The notes under the pieces were generated by a model. It did not search any database. It saw nothing but the letters and a program-made list of their open reading frames with translations, and was not told where the DNA came from. The translations under genes and the position numbers were made by a program. This document shows, one piece after another, positions 12,043 to 42,121 of a stretch of DNA of 63,802 nucleotides. The DNA comes from a virus: positions 1 to 63,802 of IMG/VR virus record IMGVR_UViG_3300042922_000620; one strand, given 5' to 3'. Every line of letters begins with the position of its first letter. The stretch's first letter is position 1.

Positions 12043-13893
12043 ATGCCGAGGGGTGGTCCGGTCTTCCGCAGCGAGGTGGTCAAGGCCCCCAAGGCGCCCG
12101 GCGCCCTCACCGCAGCAGCCAAGGTCTATCAGAATGGACCCGGCGCGCAGTCGATCCGAAAGCAGGGCCGACGCGCCCGCTCGATCGAGTATCAGAACGA
12201 CCTCTGGGACTTCTACGACACGGTGCCGGAGTTCCGGTTCGCTTGCTCGTGGGTGGGCAGTCTGCTGTCCAAGGTGCGGCTGAACGTCACCTACAAGGGC
12301 AAGCCCACCACCAATCAGGCGGCGCTCGACGCTCTCGCATCACTGTTCGGCGGACCCGAGGGCCAGGCCGAGATGATGCGGCTGCTCGGCATCAACTTCA
12401 CGGTGTGCGGCGAGGCGTTCGTCGTCGGCAAGCCGGACCCCTCATCCCACCAGGACGACTGGCAGGTGATCGCGTCGGTCGAGGTGTCGAACAACGGCAC
12501 GACGCTGACCATCGAGCAAGAGCCCATCGACGACGAGACGCTGGCGATCCGCCTGTGGCGCGTCCACCCTCGCCGCTCGTCCGAAGCCGACTCGCCCTCG
12601 CGCGCGCTCATGCCGGTCCTGGCCGAGATCGTGATGCTGACCCAGGTCGTGAACGCCCAGGGCTCGTCCCGCCTCACATCCTCCGGCATCCTCTGGATCC
12701 CGTCCGAGATCGAGATGCCGGCACTCCCCGTCACTGAGGAGAGCATCGACCCCGACGCGGAGATCTCGTCGATCCAGGAGGCGGGCAACGCCGCCGATGC
12801 CGTGACGACGCGACTCGTGAAGATCGCATCCATCGCCATCGGGGACCGCTCGTCGGCCGCCGCGAACGTGCCGTTCGTCATCGCCGCCCCGGGCGAGCAC
12901 CTCGAGAAGATCCAGAAGACCGAGTTCTGGTCCGGCTTCGACGAGCACGCCAAGACTCTCCGCGACGAGGCGATCCGCCGCGTCGGCGTCGGCATGGACA
13001 TGCCGCCCGAGGTGCTCACCGGCACCGGCGAGATCAACCACTGGGGCGCGTGGTCGGTCGAGGAGGCGGCGATCAAGTCGCACACCGAGCCCCTCATCGA
13101 CATCATCGTCAACTCGCTGTCCACCGGCTACCTCCACGCATGGCTCGAGTCCGAGGGTGTCGAGGACTGGGAGAACTACGCGTTCGACGCCGACACCACG
13201 GAACTGCGCCTGCGCCCCAACCGCTCGAAGGAAGCGATGGAACTGTGGGACCGCGGCGCGATCTCCATCGAGACGCTGCTGCGCGAGAACGGCTTCGACC
13301 CCGACACCGACCGCCCCGACGAGGCGGAGCGCATCATGTTCTTCCTCATGAAGGTGGCCGAGAAGACCTCCGCCACACCGCAGCAACTGGCGGCCGCACT
13401 GCAGCAACTCGGCGTGAAGGGCATCCCGGCGGGCGAGGACGCGCGCGGGGCCATCGAGCCGCGGCGCTCGCTCGAGGATCATCCGTCGCAGGACATCCCC
13501 GTCCAGGAGGAGTCCGAGGCGGGCAACCCGCGCGGGCTGAACGCCTCGGGCCAGCCGGTCATCATCGACCCGCTCGTGCTGGCCTGCGAGGCGCACGTGC
13601 ACCGCGCTCTCGAGCGCGCCGGCAACCGGCTCAAGAACAGGGTCGACGGCCGCGTGGGTCGAGTCGCCGCGGATCTCTACCTCACGGCACCACAGATGGA
13701 CTTCAAGGAGTGCGAGGCGCTGCTCGAGGACGCCTGGGGCATGTTGGACCGCTTCGAGTACCCGGGCATCTCGACCGAGCGGCTGCGGGAGGCGCTGAAC
13801 GAGTACACCCTGTTCCTGCTGCGCACCCAGAAGCCCATGTCGCGCGCCACCCTCGCCCGGCATCTGATGCTGGAGTTGGCGGATGCAGCCTGA
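12043..13893 (+). CDS. Portal protein
   Basis: 616 residues; ribosome site AAGGGG before the ATG. The N-terminal region (YQNDLWDFYDTVPEFRFA; CSWVGSLLSKVRL) and the central LLGINFTVCGEAFVVGK match the actinophage portal family; the C-terminal third has helices and a disordered acidic spacer. Portal dodecamers form the DNA channel, bind terminase and carry the neck. It lies between terminase and the MuF/protease gene, the expected place. Confidence 0.92.
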   Translation: MPRGGPVFRSEVVKAPKAPGALTAAAKVYQNGPGAQSIRKQGRRARSIEYQNDLWDFYDTVPEFRFACSWVGSLLSKVRLNVTYKGKPTTNQAALDALASLFGGPEGQAEMMRLLGINFTVCGEAFVVGKPDPSSHQDDWQVIASVEVSNNGTTLTIEQEPIDDETLAIRLWRVHPRRSSEADSPSRALMPVLAEIVMLTQVVNAQGSSRLTSSGILWIPSEIEMPALPVTEESIDPDAEISSIQEAGNAADAVTTRLVKIASIAIGDRSSAAANVPFVIAAPGEHLEKIQKTEFWSGFDEHAKTLRDEAIRRVGVGMDMPPEVLTGTGEINHWGAWSVEEAAIKSHTEPLIDIIVNSLSTGYLHAWLESEGVEDWENYAFDADTTELRLRPNRSKEAMELWDRGAISIETLLRENGFDPDTDRPDEAERIMFFLMKVAEKTSATPQQLAAALQQLGVKGIPAGEDARGAIEPRRSLEDHPSQDIPVQEESEAGNPRGLNASGQPVIIDPLVLACEAHVHRALERAGNRLKNRVDGRVGRVAADLYLTAPQMDFKECEALLEDAWGMLDRFEYPGISTERLREALNEYTLFLLRTQKPMSRATLARHLMLELADAA

Positions 13894-16800
13894 GGCGTTC
13901 GCAGCGGCACGGCGGGAGCAGTTGCTCCTCGCCGACGAGAGGCTGGGTCCTGCCGTCGAGTTGGGGCTCATGCGCTACCTCAACGGCGAGGATGGCTGGG
14001 CGAGCATCATCCGCGACACGGCGGGCCAGATCTGGCTCGAGCACTACGTGGCCGAGTCGCCGGGGCGCGACTACGACCGTGCGCTCGCACGCTTCCGGGA
14101 GGCCGTGGGTGAGGCGCTCTCGCGCACCTCGCAGCCGACCGGCGATGTGACGCAGGCGCAGGTAGGCCGCATCGTCCGCTGGCTGTCCACCTACAGCGTG
14201 AACGCCGGGACGATCTCCGGCGCGTACGGGCGCGGCATCCGGTTCAAGCGCTGGACGACCATGAACGACGCCGACGTGCGCGAGATCCACGAGCACCTCG
14301 ACGGGCAGATCCGCCCCATCGGCGGGACCTTCGACGTCGCCGGGCACCGCCTGCCCTACCCTGCGGTGCCCGTGGGTCCGCCGGAGGTGTGGATCGAGTG
14401 CCGCTGCGTGGCGCAGCCGGCATCCCGCGAGGGCGAGACGATGAGCGCGAACACGTTCACCATCGGCCCGGAGTACGAGATCGACGAGGAGCACGAGATC
14501 GTGAGCAACAACATTACTGCGGCCGGTGACCTGGCCAACCCTGACGGGACGCCGTACACCGGCGCGCTCGTGGTGCTCGTGCCGGCCGACTCGGACCCTG
14601 TCGTGGCGGCGTCGAGCGAGCCCGCCCACGTGACGACGGTGTGGTTCGGCGAACTAGCCGACCTCCCTGTGGATGTCGAAGAACTCGAGCAGGCGGTGCG
14701 CCTCTACGCCCAGGGTCTCGACGGCCCTGTCGTAGTTCCCGTCCGCGAGCGCGGCACGCTTGGCGACGACGACGCAGACGTCGTGTTCCTCGAGCCGACA
14801 GATTCGCTGCTGGCGCTGCGCGACGGTCTGCTGGTGAATGAGCCGATCAAGACGGCGTATGACGCCGCGGAGCAGTTCCCCGAGTGGACCCCGCACGTCA
14901 CGCTCGGCTATCCCGAGCGGCCCGCGAAGGCCGAGTACGATGCGACAGAGGTGACGTTCGACCGGATCAGCCTGTGGCTGGGCGGCGAGCACTACGACTA
15001 CCCGATGGGAGGGACCGCCGTGACTGCGGATGCTGCGATCGCAGACGAGGATGTCGTCGCCGAGGACATCCCCATGGACGAGCCCGAAGACGACGAGGAC
15101 CTCATCACCGAGATCCCCATCCACGGCGTGCTCGCGCCCGAGGGGATCCTGACCGGAGATGGCCGCGGCTTCCGCGAGGGCGCGCTGTCCACGCGGCCGC
15201 TACCCGTGCCGTACCGATACGAGTACGTGTCGTCACACGGCGGCAATCAGACTTCCGAGGTGGCCACCGTCGGCCGCATCGACCAGGCGTGGAAGCACGA
15301 GGAGACGGGCATGTGGCGCTTCATCGGCGCGATTGTGCTCGACAAGCCGTACGCCGCGGCGGCGATCTCCTCGATCATCGACGGCACCGGCTCGGGCGTC
15401 TCCATCGACGCCGACGACATGGTCCAGGACTTCTCCGACATCCTCGACGAGGAGGGCAACTACATCGAGAAGCCCTTCGACCTGGCCGAGGTGGGCAAGC
15501 AGGAGGAGATGTGGTTCTCGCAGGCGCGCGTGGCGGGCCTGACCCAGGTGCCGATCCCCGCCTTCCACCAGGCGTACGTCGCCCTGGGTGACGAGTTCGT
15601 GGAGGACATGACCGAGGAGCAGGCGCTCGCAGCGTCCGCCGCTCTCGAGGACTGCGGCTGCGACGGCGAGGTGGCGCTGGCTGCCGCCGGCGTGGACTTC
15701 CGCGACGTCTCGACGAAGGAGCGCAAGCGCCTGGCCGACGAGGGCAACGCGATGCCCGACGGCTCATACCCGATCGCCAATGAGGAGGACCTCCGCAACG
15801 CGATCCAGGCTATCGGTCGGGCCAAGGACCCGGATGCCGTCAAGGCGCACATCAAGAAGCGGGCGCGTGCACTCGGCAAGGAAGACCTGATCCCCGAGGG
15901 CTGGTCGCTCGCGCGCGGCGGGTTCGTCACCGCCGGCACCTTCGCTCTTGCTGGCGAGACCGGCATCCCCGAGTACATCGTCCCGCTCACAGTGGCGGGC
16001 GACAACCAGGAACTGCTCGCCCGGATCGCACGAGGCGACGTGTCGTTCGCACCCGGGACCAAGGACGGCCCGGGGTGGATCACCCACCCGGTCGCCACCT
16101 CGCGCATCCGCCGCTACTGGGTGCGCGGCACCGGCGCCGGCAAGATCGGCTGGGGCCGCGGCGGGGACTTCTATCGCTGCCGGAACCAACTGCGCAAGTA
16201 TGTCGCCAACCCCGACTGGCTGGACGGTCTGTGCGCAAACATGCACAAGGAGGCGACCGGCATCTGGCCCGGACAGCACGACGCCCACTCGATCCGCCAG
16301 GGCCTGGTAGCCGCCGGTACCATCACCGCCGAGCCCGCGCCGCTCGCCCGCCTGGTCGCGAGCGCGTCGCGCAAGTTCCCCGCCGCCGCGTTCGCCGAGC
16401 CCGAGGACCTGGGCCGCGCGTACGCGATGCGCATCGACCGCGAGACACGCCGGATCTGGGGCTTCGCCGCAGACTGGACCACCTGCCACATCGGCATCAC
16501 CGGCATGTGCCAGGAGCCGCCGAAGTCGCACTCGAACTACTCGTACTTCCGCAAGGGCCTGGTCGAGACCGACGCCGGCGAGCAGTCGGTGGGCCTGCTG
16601 ACGATGGGCATCGGTCACGCCGGGGAACGCGTCTCGGCTGCTGCCGCGACGGCGCACTACGACCGCACCGAGGCCGTCAAGGCGTATATCAACATCGGCG
16701 AGAACGCCTATGGGATCTGGTACGCCGGAGTGCTCGCACCCTGGGTCACCGACGACGACATCGACGCGATGCTCGCCATCCGGCGCGTCTCTGGCGACTG

Positions 16801-17128
16801 GCGTAACTGGTCGGGCCGGTACGGCGACCTCGAGATGGTGGGCCTGGTGGTCGTCAACACTGAGGGCTTCCAACTCGCGGCATCCGGCGCGCTCGACGGC
16901 ATGGTCGAAGGCGTACAGACGGCGGCGATCGGCATCGGATCCGTCGACGTCAAGGACGACGAGCCGGTGACGTCGAAAGACGTGGGCGAGACGCACGAGC
17001 AGTTCGTGCAGCGCCTGGCGGTCGAGGTGGCACGAGTCACCGCGTTCAAGGCTCGCGAGCAGGCCGCTCGTGAGCGCATCCACGCGCTGCGCGTCGCCGA
17101 CGCGCGCGCACGACTCGAGAGGATCTGA
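13883..17128 (+). CDS. MuF / 2H phosphoesterase / prohead protease fusion
   Basis: 1081 residues, beginning 11 bases inside the portal gene. Domains: MuF-like head protein about 1-180 (FKRWTTMNDADVREIHEHLD, IECRCVAQP); a 2H-phosphoesterase-like domain about 225-365 with both HxT motifs (AHVTTVWF at 248-255, PHVTLGY at 337-343); an HK97-type prohead protease about 405-570 with candidate catalytic H452 (SSHGGN) and S507 (GVSID); a small DGSYPIANEEDL domain about 610-675; and two C-terminal regions (WITHPVATSRIRRYW about 732; WYAGVLAPWVTDDDID about 946) seen in actinophage maturation proteins. It should act in prohead assembly and cleavage; the role of the 2H domain is unknown. Confidence 0.88.
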   Translation: MQPEAFAAARREQLLLADERLGPAVELGLMRYLNGEDGWASIIRDTAGQIWLEHYVAESPGRDYDRALARFREAVGEALSRTSQPTGDVTQAQVGRIVRWLSTYSVNAGTISGAYGRGIRFKRWTTMNDADVREIHEHLDGQIRPIGGTFDVAGHRLPYPAVPVGPPEVWIECRCVAQPASREGETMSANTFTIGPEYEIDEEHEIVSNNITAAGDLANPDGTPYTGALVVLVPADSDPVVAASSEPAHVTTVWFGELADLPVDVEELEQAVRLYAQGLDGPVVVPVRERGTLGDDDADVVFLEPTDSLLALRDGLLVNEPIKTAYDAAEQFPEWTPHVTLGYPERPAKAEYDATEVTFDRISLWLGGEHYDYPMGGTAVTADAAIADEDVVAEDIPMDEPEDDEDLITEIPIHGVLAPEGILTGDGRGFREGALSTRPLPVPYRYEYVSSHGGNQTSEVATVGRIDQAWKHEETGMWRFIGAIVLDKPYAAAAISSIIDGTGSGVSIDADDMVQDFSDILDEEGNYIEKPFDLAEVGKQEEMWFSQARVAGLTQVPIPAFHQAYVALGDEFVEDMTEEQALAASAALEDCGCDGEVALAAAGVDFRDVSTKERKRLADEGNAMPDGSYPIANEEDLRNAIQAIGRAKDPDAVKAHIKKRARALGKEDLIPEGWSLARGGFVTAGTFALAGETGIPEYIVPLTVAGDNQELLARIARGDVSFAPGTKDGPGWITHPVATSRIRRYWVRGTGAGKIGWGRGGDFYRCRNQLRKYVANPDWLDGLCANMHKEATGIWPGQHDAHSIRQGLVAAGTITAEPAPLARLVASASRKFPAAAFAEPEDLGRAYAMRIDRETRRIWGFAADWTTCHIGITGMCQEPPKSHSNYSYFRKGLVETDAGEQSVGLLTMGIGHAGERVSAAAATAHYDRTEAVKAYINIGENAYGIWYAGVLAPWVTDDDIDAMLAIRRVSGDWRNWSGRYGDLEMVGLVVVNTEGFQLAASGALDGMVEGVQTAAIGIGSVDVKDDEPVTSKDVGETHEQFVQRLAVEVARVTAFKAREQAARERIHALRVADARARLERI

Positions 17129-39068: not shown

Positions 39069-39439
39069 TGGCAGTAGGGGATGACGGCATCCCGCCCTGG
39101 GTCGACTTCGTCCTGGATCGGGTAGATAAGCAGTTCGACAACACCAATTCCCGGATCGACCGCCTGGTCACGCAGGACGCGTTCCGGCAAGAGCAAGACC
39201 GAGTGAACCAGCGACTCACGACGCACGATCGAGAACTCGGCGAGAGCAAGGCGGCCATCCAGGCAGAGGCCAACGCTCGAGCCACCGAAAACCGCCTGCG
39301 GGCCGAGCAGGAGAACGCACAGAAGGACAGGATCATCGCCACCCAAAAGCAGACCCAGTGGCAGTGGCTGCTCATCATCGCGGGGCCCATCATCGGGTGG
39401 GTCGTCGGGGGTATCCTGCCGCCCATTGGAGGGCCGTGA
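39068..39439 (+). CDS. Coiled-coil protein with C-terminal membrane helix
   Basis: 123 residues from the ATG overlapping the endolysin stop. About 15-90 is a coiled coil ([20 protein letters not shown]); about 98-118 is hydrophobic ([20 protein letters not shown]). Resembles actinophage DUF2746-type lysis-cassette membrane proteins. Could act as a holin partner or pinholin regulator. Confidence 0.75.
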
Positions 39440-40179
39440 TGACCGAGGATGAGCAGACGTCGGAGGTGATCCAGGCGGTCACCCCCGGCTCGATCACGAT
39501 CCCCACCATCGTCGAACCGCGGCGGCCACCGTGGGTCCTCTATCTCGCTACCGCCGCCCTGCTTGTGGTGGCGTTCGTGGTCATGTTCGGCTGGGTGTCG
39601 AACCTCGTCGACCGCAATGAGCGTCTCAATGCCATGGTCAGTAAGCAGGCTGACGTGATCGCCGCGAACGACATACAGATCTCGGACCTGATCGACGATC
39701 TGATCGCCTCCAATGAGAACGCTCAGCGCCTCTACGATCAACTCCTGGCCGAGGGCGTGCAGCCCGACGGTGTGCCGCCGGACGTTCTTACGCCAGACGC
39801 GGGACCCCGCGGTCCCGCCGGTGAGATAGGTCCTGCTGGCCGCCCGCCCACCGACGCCGAGGTGCAGGCTGCCGTCGAGCGGTTCTGTGCCGCCGTCGGC
39901 GGATGCCAGGGCCGGGATGGCGTCGATGGCGCGCCCGGCCCAGCCGGCGCGAACGGGGTTGATGGCGCCAGTGGGACCGATGGCGCGCCCGGACCCGCCG
40001 GACCCCAAGGCGAGCAGGGACCCGCTGGCCCACAGGGTCCCCCTGGGCCCGCATGCCCCGAGGGCTATACCATCCAGATAACGTGGGTCGCGATCTCCGA
40101 CGAGGAGTTTGGCGTCTACACACCCCAGCCGGTGCCCCTGTGCCGGCCGACCGCACCAGTAACGGAGGGAACGCAATGA
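39439..40179 (+). CDS. Membrane protein with collagen-like repeats
   Basis: 246 residues; ATG overlaps the previous stop. One transmembrane helix ([20 protein letters not shown], about 34-53), a coiled coil (about 60-105), then Gly-x-Y collagen repeats ([43 protein letters not shown]) and a short Cys-containing end. Probably a trimeric membrane-anchored rod near the lysis genes. Function unknown. Confidence 0.8.
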
Positions 40180-40670
40180 TCCTGAACAAGTACGCCGCCG
40201 GTCTGCTCACGCTCGTGGGCACGCTGGTCTACGCGCTGCAGTTGGCGCTGGCCGACAACGTCTTCACCCCGCAGGAGCAGTGGGAGTTCGGCGGCCTGGC
40301 CGCGGGCTCGGCGGTGGCGATCTTCGTCCCGCTGCTCAAGACCGGGTGGGCTGCCCTGCTCAAGGTCGGCGGTAACGTCATCGTCGCCGTCGCTGGCGCG
40401 ATCGTCGGTGTCATCGTGGCCGGTGGCGAGTGGCAGACCTCGACGACCATGGCGATCATCTTCGCGGGCGTGAACGCGCTGCTCACGCAGTTGGGCGTCT
40501 CGATGCGAACCGACTCGGCTAAGCAGGCCCTGGCGGCGCCGGACGTCTCCGACCGCATCCCCGTTAAGGTCGACGGACAGGCCGTCAAGGTCGTCCTCGC
40601 GCACGACCCGTCGGCGGCCAGCGGGCCGGGTCTGTCGCAGCATGACGACGGTCGCGCGGTGGTAGGCTGA
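40176..40670 (+). CDS. Holin (probable)
   Basis: 164 residues, ribosome site GGAGGGA. Three hydrophobic helices at about 9-27 ([18 protein letters not shown]), 39-57 and 65-85 ([20 protein letters not shown]), then a polar basic C-terminal tail. Location at the end of the lysis cassette, after the endolysin, supports holin function; sequence alone does not prove pore formation. Confidence 0.75.
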
Positions 40671-40683
40671 CACCGTTCCCTTC

Positions 40684-40699
40684 GTCCCAATCTTGGGAC
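40684..40699. repeat. Dispersed palindrome copy 9
   Basis: GTCCCAATCTTGGGAC, between the holin stop and the bidirectional terminator. Confidence 0.92.
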
Positions 40700-40702
40700 A
40701 GC

Positions 40703-40740
40703 GAGAGGCCCGTGACCGGGGGGTTGGTCACGGGCCTCTC
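40703..40740. terminator. Bidirectional terminator between convergent operons
   Basis: GAGAGGCCCGTGACC (40703-40717) pairs perfectly with GGTCACGGGCCTCTC (40726-40740) across GGGGGGTT; TGTTG follows on the plus strand. It separates the rightward late operon from the leftward surface-protein gene, so it probably works in both directions. Confidence 0.85.
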
Positions 40741-40751
40741 TGTTGCCCAGG

Positions 40752-41885
40752 TTACTCCTGGGCGGTCCGGCGCCGAGCGATAGCGAACGCTGCGCCACCT
40801 GCGGTCAGCAGCAGCAGGGCTGCTCCGAGCGCGAGGGGTGAGACGTCTTCACTGCCGGTTGCCGCGAGCGCTGCTGGGGGGGCAGGCGTCGCGGGCGCTG
40901 CGGGGACAGCGGGCGCCGGGGTTGTGGGTTCGGGCTCAGGCTCCGGCTCCGGAGCGGGCTCCACGAACGTGTAGGTGGTGCATCCGATGGTGAACGACTC
41001 GACCGTGGTGGTCGACGCCTCCGGGTGCGTGTAGAGCAGGCGGATGCCCGACACCGTCACATCGCCGTTGAACTCGATGTAGTCCGAGATCGAGCCGAAG
41101 GCCGGGTAGCCCATGCCAGCCTCGACGCCCTCCCAGGCGCTCTGGCTCCACAGGTTCCCGCCGTAGGACGGCTCCTCCTCGAACGAGATCGTGCCCTCGG
41201 GGGTGTCGATGTGAAGGCCGACGTACTGGATCGGGTCGGCCTGGATGTCCAGGACCGTTCCGATGTCAGCGAGCGTGCCCGAGAACGGGACCGCGATCGA
41301 CTCCGACTCCCAGCCACCGGGGACCGAGATCACGCCGTCGCCGACGATCGTCTGGTAGTCGAGCACCGTGGTGCACGACGGCTGGTAGACGGTCGGCTCC
41401 TCCTCGCAGACCACCGCGTCGTGCTCGATGGTCTCAGTCCACGGCTCGACGTAGTCCGGGTTCGGGATCGTCATCGTCGGCTCGCCCACCGGGTCGGTAG
41501 CGGCGACGTTCTCGCGGTAGAACCATGAGCCGTGCCCCTCGCCCTGCTGGTAGACGCCGGTCTGGTCCTGACCCGGGCCGCCCTCGGTGTGGGGTCCCTG
41601 CCAGGTGCCGCGCTCGTCGAGCGGGAACGTGGGCGCGCCCTCGAGCGGACCCTGATCCTTGTTCGGCGAGAAGTTCCACCACGTGGTCGACGCCGGCACG
41701 CCAGGGACGTACTCGGGGTTGTCGACGGTGATGGTCGGCTCACCAACGGCGGGGCGCTCGATGGTCTCCGTCCAGGCATCGGACGGCACACACGGCTCCG
41801 GCGTGGCGTTGGCAGCGGGGGCCGCGAATGCGATCCCTGCCGCGACAAGCAGAGCGGCGAGCGCCCCGCTGGCGAACTTCTTCAT
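40752..41885 (-). CDS. Secreted surface protein with LAATG sortase-type anchor
   Basis: 377 residues, start after GAAGGAGA. Signal peptide MKKFASGALAALLVAAG..., likely cut after ANA at 27. The mature part has two Trp/Pro-rich repeats (AWTETIERPAVGEPTITV near 37; PWTETIEHDAVVCEEEP near 146), a beta domain about 175-305, a Pro/Glu spacer, then LAATG at 340-344, a hydrophobic helix and RRRTAQE. This is the order of a sortase substrate (LAxTG is used by class E sortases). The phage encodes no sortase here, so a host enzyme would attach it to the wall. Confidence 0.88.
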   Translation of the reverse strand: MKKFASGALAALLVAAGIAFAAPAANATPEPCVPSDAWTETIERPAVGEPTITVDNPEYVPGVPASTTWWNFSPNKDQGPLEGAPTFPLDERGTWQGPHTEGGPGQDQTGVYQQGEGHGSWFYRENVAATDPVGEPTMTIPNPDYVEPWTETIEHDAVVCEEEPTVYQPSCTTVLDYQTIVGDGVISVPGGWESESIAVPFSGTLADIGTVLDIQADPIQYVGLHIDTPEGTISFEEEPSYGGNLWSQSAWEGVEAGMGYPAFGSISDYIEFNGDVTVSGIRLLYTHPEASTTTVESFTIGCTTYTFVEPAPEPEPEPEPTTPAPAVPAAPATPAPPAALAATGSEDVSPLALGAALLLLTAGGAAFAIARRRTAQE

Positions 41886-42121
41886 GCGTTCTCCTTCTGT
41901 GTTCCCCCGGTGTTGCCCGGGTGGTCTTGTGATGAATCGCTCGGTTCAGCCAGGCGATCCCACAACTGTCCTGGCGTGCGCTCGGGGTGACCGCCGAGCA
42001 CGTTCACTGCAATCTCGTCGGCGCGCAGTCGCCTGTCGCCGTCCGCCCACATCTGGCACCACTTCTCCATCAACTCAGCGGGTATCGGTGAGCCTGCCTC
42101 GGTGAGGACCTTGGCGGTCAT
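41882..42121 (-). CDS. 79-residue protein of unknown function
   Basis: Its stop overlaps the surface-protein ATG, and its start overlaps the stop of the winged-helix gene, so the three are probably co-translated. MEKWCQMWADGDRRLRADEIAV reads as a helical unit; the C-terminus is polar (SSQDHPGNTGGTQKENA). No family recognised. Confidence 0.75.
   Translation of the reverse strand: MTAKVLTEAGSPIPAELMEKWCQMWADGDRRLRADEIAVNVLGGHPERTPGQLWDRLAEPSDSSQDHPGNTGGTQKENA

Follow-up and report, generated by a model that had tools for sequence, protein, structure and literature searches.

The window, that is, the whole 63,802-nt stretch of viral DNA analyzed here, encodes a protein for which the sequence strongly supports a structural reading: a phage-encoded surface protein, anchored by a sortase, whose gene belongs to neither the tail nor the lysis cassette. 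This reading extends to a whole phage family of such proteins. Its best explanation, which we rate a little short of an even chance from the sequence comparisons, is a mask that the host sortase would anchor on infected cells, serving superinfection exclusion or the protection of progeny. The CDS (40752..41885, minus strand) starts with ATG, specifies 377 aa, has an AAGGAG ribosome-binding site at 41891–41896 and overlaps in an ATGA (41882–41885) with a 79-aa ORF upstream (41882..42121, minus strand, from the ORF list), with which it is predicted to share an operon. The ORF list, the ribosome-binding site and the overlap bore out an earlier note on this DNA, which had taken the ORF to be real and had given these coordinates. 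The gene is further supported by relatives in ∼90 phage records and by dN lower than dS in comparisons with phage Ixel and with L014, a locus from the metagenomic phage that holds the closest relative.

The same note had placed the gene at the end of the leftward half and outside the tail and lysis cassette. Indeed, the rightward late genes stop at 40670, and the wall-protein gene belongs to the arm that runs leftward, where RecT-like and RecE-like genes, an SSB gene and a replication initiator gene run upstream of it in the same direction. The rightward arm carries genes for terminase, portal, capsid, tail, M23 peptidase, collagen-like and membrane proteins. A strong hairpin (40694..40749, no strand assigned; inverted repeat of 24 nt with a 15-bp perfect core, z −7.05) separates the two convergent arms and is likely a terminator. 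It lacks a T-run, and the terminator scan, which looks for T-runs, did not report it. On the plus strand, 39358–40179 encodes a protein with collagen repeats and a membrane segment at its N terminus, directly after the M23 peptidase gene and near the late-arm end, and 13883–17128 encodes a large fused head protein of 1081 aa with MuF/portal-like, RNA-ligase-like and head-maturation-protease-like PHROG matches. A position outside the structural and lysis modules, as looked for in superinfection-exclusion genes, was found for the wall-protein gene and mostly for its relatives, whose genes generally sit amid replication, recombination and accessory genes and not tail or lysin genes. One relative has a match to a PHROG labelled virion structural protein, as might be expected if the protein were part of the particle and its C-terminal helix had another purpose. 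However, the window gene is not in the structural arm and every relative has a complete signal peptide and sorting signal, so that we regard a virion protein as very improbable.

The protein has the full layout of a sortase substrate, as the earlier note had read it: signal peptide, two repeats, beta domain, Pro/Glu spacer, LAATG, hydrophobic helix and RRR (all segments on the minus strand). The signal peptide MKKFASGALAALLVAAGIAFAAPAANA (residues 1–27, 41805..41885) ends in ANA|T and, judged by inspection, has the KK, hydrophobic core and ANA cleavage site of a Sec-exported wall protein; an N-terminal signal peptide is present in 21/21 aligned relatives. We rejected a lipoprotein of the Llp/Ltp type, given that there is no lipobox and that the invariant Cys32 follows NATPEP, five residues past the AxA site. 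The two repeats, AWTETIERPAVGEPTITVDNPEYVP (residues 37–61, 41703..41777) and PVGEPTMTIPNPDYVEPWTETIEHDAV (residues 132–158, 41412..41492), are of the type WTETIE/GEPTxTxxNPxY, form the direct DNA repeat D1 and flank a Trp-rich insert (WWNFSPNK...GSWFYRE, residues 66–125, 41511..41690), which AlphaFold modelled poorly and which is kept in Ixel, MO526, Kozie and the loci L014, L015 and L017. The repeat unit is multiplied in relatives, with up to 15 NPxY units in Hendrix. Next comes the beta domain (residues 166–308, 40962..41390), which is 83% identical in L014, is modelled by AlphaFold with strands as a beta sandwich, and is probably closed by Cys171 and Cys302. It is followed by a Pro/Glu/Ala spacer to span the wall (residues 309–339, 40869..40961), the LAATG sorting motif (residues 340–344, 40854..40868), a hydrophobic membrane segment (residues 345–370, 40776..40853; predicted helix 351–375) and the basic tail RRRTAQE (40755..40775), in which RRR occupies residues 371–373. 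A PDB profile match to inulosucrase was discarded, as it covers only the spacer and anchor at the C-terminal end of the profile.

Several searches addressed the sorting signal. The NCBIfam LAETG, LAVTG and LPXTG anchor models all align at residues 340–373 of the window protein, each under its own cut-off (TIGR01167, 13.1 against 15.9; strep_LAETG, 24.3 against 30), while relatives in 11 of 24 phage records pass the cut-off of LPXTG_anchor (TIGR01167); this model had no match in WestPM, which lacks the gene at the corresponding site. A regular expression for the complete sorting signal was run on every ORF of ≥80 aa from the window and the compared loci; it hit only the wall-protein family and one small L014 gene. 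Furthermore, LAxTG and the basic tail are kept in 21/21 relatives at identities down to 25%. The specificity of the regular expression, this retention and the relatives that pass the LPXTG_anchor cut-off argue that the sorting signal is more than chance. In one metagenomic phage, LPXTG_anchor also detects another small gene for an anchored protein; in L014, the phage with the closest relative, positions 3–380 encode a second small LAITG-anchored protein whose frame is open at the start of the slice.

From this anatomy, the protein is very probably anchored to the host wall. Class E sortases of soil actinobacteria recognize LAXTG (PMC5148588), and their substrates, such as the Streptomyces chaplins and the proteins behind the NCBIfam LAETG/LAVTG/LPXTG domains, have the same signal peptide, spacer, LAxTG, hydrophobic helix and basic tail. 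Unlike these substrates, the wall-protein family is encoded by mostly virulent phages, the ectodomain of the window protein has no Pfam match and no bacterial homologue was found. The protein would be exported via Sec by an infected Microbacterium-like host, whose class-E-type sortase would cut LAAT|G and link it to the peptidoglycan.

With the window protein as tblastn query, relatives were found in 45 phage records, and with the closest metagenomic relative as query in 89. All named records, ∼90 in total, are Microbacterium phages, many of them not otherwise related. They include members of at least eight named genera (Neferthenavirus, Mementomorivirus, Squashvirus, Gillianvirus, Rogerhendrixvirus, Krampusvirus, Quhwahvirus and Metamorphoovirus) and unclassified phages, for instance FuzzBuster, ValentiniPuff and Nicole72; IMG/VR contigs also carry relatives. 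Because every named relative is from a Microbacterium phage, we infer a Microbacterium-like host for the window phage. The wall-protein gene is absent from many phages that infect the same hosts (EA phages such as WestPM) and is therefore dispensable. Scans with short peptide patterns, which may miss divergent homologues, confirmed no homologue in 84,980 species genomes of bacteria and archaea; a plasmid search found none either, and a bacterial origin of the gene was rejected on these grounds.

We aligned 21 family members (∼25–65% identity); the only invariant columns are Cys32, the spacer Pro320 and four of the five LAxTG positions (L, A, T, G), with a signal-peptide alanine and one tail arginine near-invariant. 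The cysteine count of the mature part is even in every member (the members are not independent), which fits exported disulfides. Substitutions in the protein are constrained: dN/dS in the repeat and beta regions is ∼0.3–0.55 when the window is compared with Ixel and L014; in short segments dS is close to saturation. As the sorting signal is the best-conserved part and a phage sortase was not found, the protein could be a decoy, an abundant LAxTG substrate that ties up the host sortase so that host surface proteins, for example phage receptors, stay off the wall. However, a decoy would not need 250–600 residues of selected ectodomain, and dN/dS is well under 1 in the repeat and beta regions; we consider this explanation improbable.

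At the DNA level, the wall-protein gene evidently moves as a cassette. When 22.5 kb of Ixel were compared with the window, it was the sole detectable DNA in common (73% over 732 bp), and a comparison with 8.1 kb of L014 gave the same result. In Ixel, genes 42 and 43 are located between MazG and helicase; at this site WestPM has a different gene of 291 bp, and homology returns 1 nt past the stop of gene 42. The Quhwahvirus phages Gina and Jayden have flanks that are 90–91% identical and ectodomains that are just 23% identical: DNA homology is absent throughout the ectodomain and returns at the first base of the LAQTG codons (Gina 4879–4880 of L026). In the pairs Gina–Metamorphoo and Gina–Paschalis, the homologous stretch upstream extends to the start codon. 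These breakpoints in the Gina comparisons indicate that the ectodomain is swapped as a module between an upstream side and a display signal that stay constant. Three more metagenomic contigs share only the C-terminal domain of some members, and all end in LAYTG (two complete genes, one fragment). The LAYTG proteins at L031 4404–5582 and L033 4380–5585, which have only the C-terminal QNPNGYEFPGQGFRVY domain in common with the family, represent further modular exchange.

This variability of the ectodomains, as between Gina and Jayden, and the combination of repeats, spacer and LAxTG, typical of Gram-positive adhesins, would also suit an anchored protein that sticks infected cells to neighbours or matrix and so places the burst near new hosts. 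The beta domain weakly resembles carbohydrate-binding beta sandwiches, but this likeness is no better than noise: fold searches with the whole model and with the beta domain returned only beta-sandwich matches (carbohydrate-binding modules, HFTV1 turret) with Z ≤6.2. In addition, the benefit of adhesion is less direct in a short lytic cycle, and we judge an adhesin unlikely. Rather less likely again is a protein that guards the wall, either by keeping lysins off the peptidoglycan or wall polymers (in lysis from without or premature lysis) or by stabilizing the wall until the burst. The wall location, the presence of the gene in virulent phages and its proximity to phage glycosyltransferase and UDP-glucose dehydrogenase genes in Quhwahvirus and Metamorphoovirus speak for this explanation, but swapping at a fixed locus suggests a target more variable than peptidoglycan. 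In L021, L024, L026 and L027, the family gene is closely followed by those for glycosyltransferase and UDP-glucose dehydrogenase, possibly a second surface-modifying module.

The phage lifestyle further limits what the protein may do. We detected no integrase, serine recombinase or sortase in the window, and most phages of Microbacterium are obligately lytic (PMC7302621), so the benefit must fall within one lytic cycle. For the same two reasons, lysogenic conversion was rejected as the main reading and is unlikely. The proposal of the earlier note, that the protein blocks superinfection or alters adhesion, is plausible in view of the anatomy, of the ectodomain swapping seen in the sequences and of a virulent lifestyle. 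Among such roles, masking of a receptor fits best, given the virulent lifestyle, the wall anchor, the swappable ectodomain and the location in the non-structural arm. The mask would combine constant parts (signal peptide, spacer, sorting signal) with an exchangeable ectodomain of repeats and beta domain, and would coat infected cells before they lyse. The ectodomain might bind a wall component, although the ligand is a guess, as the likeness of the beta domain to carbohydrate-binding modules does not rise above noise. Later phages would thereby be kept from adsorbing to a cell already taken, and freed progeny would not be trapped on wall debris. A broader proposal is advanced tentatively and may well not hold: that mostly virulent Gram-positive phages share a horizontally exchanged cassette in which a constant sorting signal, the host sortase and exchangeable ectodomains make up a dedicated viral surface-coat system against competitors that protects progeny.

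Superinfection exclusion is well known in Gram-negative phages and prophages, whereas to our knowledge little has been written on how virulent phages of Gram-positive bacteria alter the cell surface. The superinfection-blocking lipoproteins of Gram-positive temperate phages, TP-J34 Ltp and Lactococcus Sie, are membrane-bound and expressed from prophages; they resemble the wall protein as exported phage proteins on a Gram-positive host, but the wall protein has no lipobox and its phage no detectable integrase. Exclusion proteins are made early by many phages and act against superinfection and adsorption to lysed fragments; one of them, T5 Llp, masks the phage receptor FhuA (PMC9586334). The mask proposed here would be a Gram-positive counterpart of Llp, both being products of non-structural phage genes that act in the host envelope against adsorption. 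Llp, however, is a small lipoprotein of the outer membrane and jams FhuA, whereas the wall protein is larger and carries a wall-sorting signal for Gram-positive hosts. Phage-encoded LPXTG proteins or sortase substrates in virulent phages were not described in the open-licence papers searched, and the family appears to be undescribed so far.

The ∼90 phage records of culturable laboratory hosts (M. foliorum, M. paraoxydans), together with natural presence/absence and ectodomain-swap pairs, make the question directly testable. Many SEA-PHAGES genes labelled ‘hypothetical’ or ‘membrane protein’ would also gain a location and a testable role. Relatives are currently annotated with these two terms or as ‘glycosyltransferase’, and for Paschalis 81 and Quhwah 85 the last label is probably wrong: Paschalis 81 (L021 4001–5326) has a signal peptide, GEPT repeats and an LAQTG tail as in the wall-protein family, and Quhwah 85 has a tblastn match to it.
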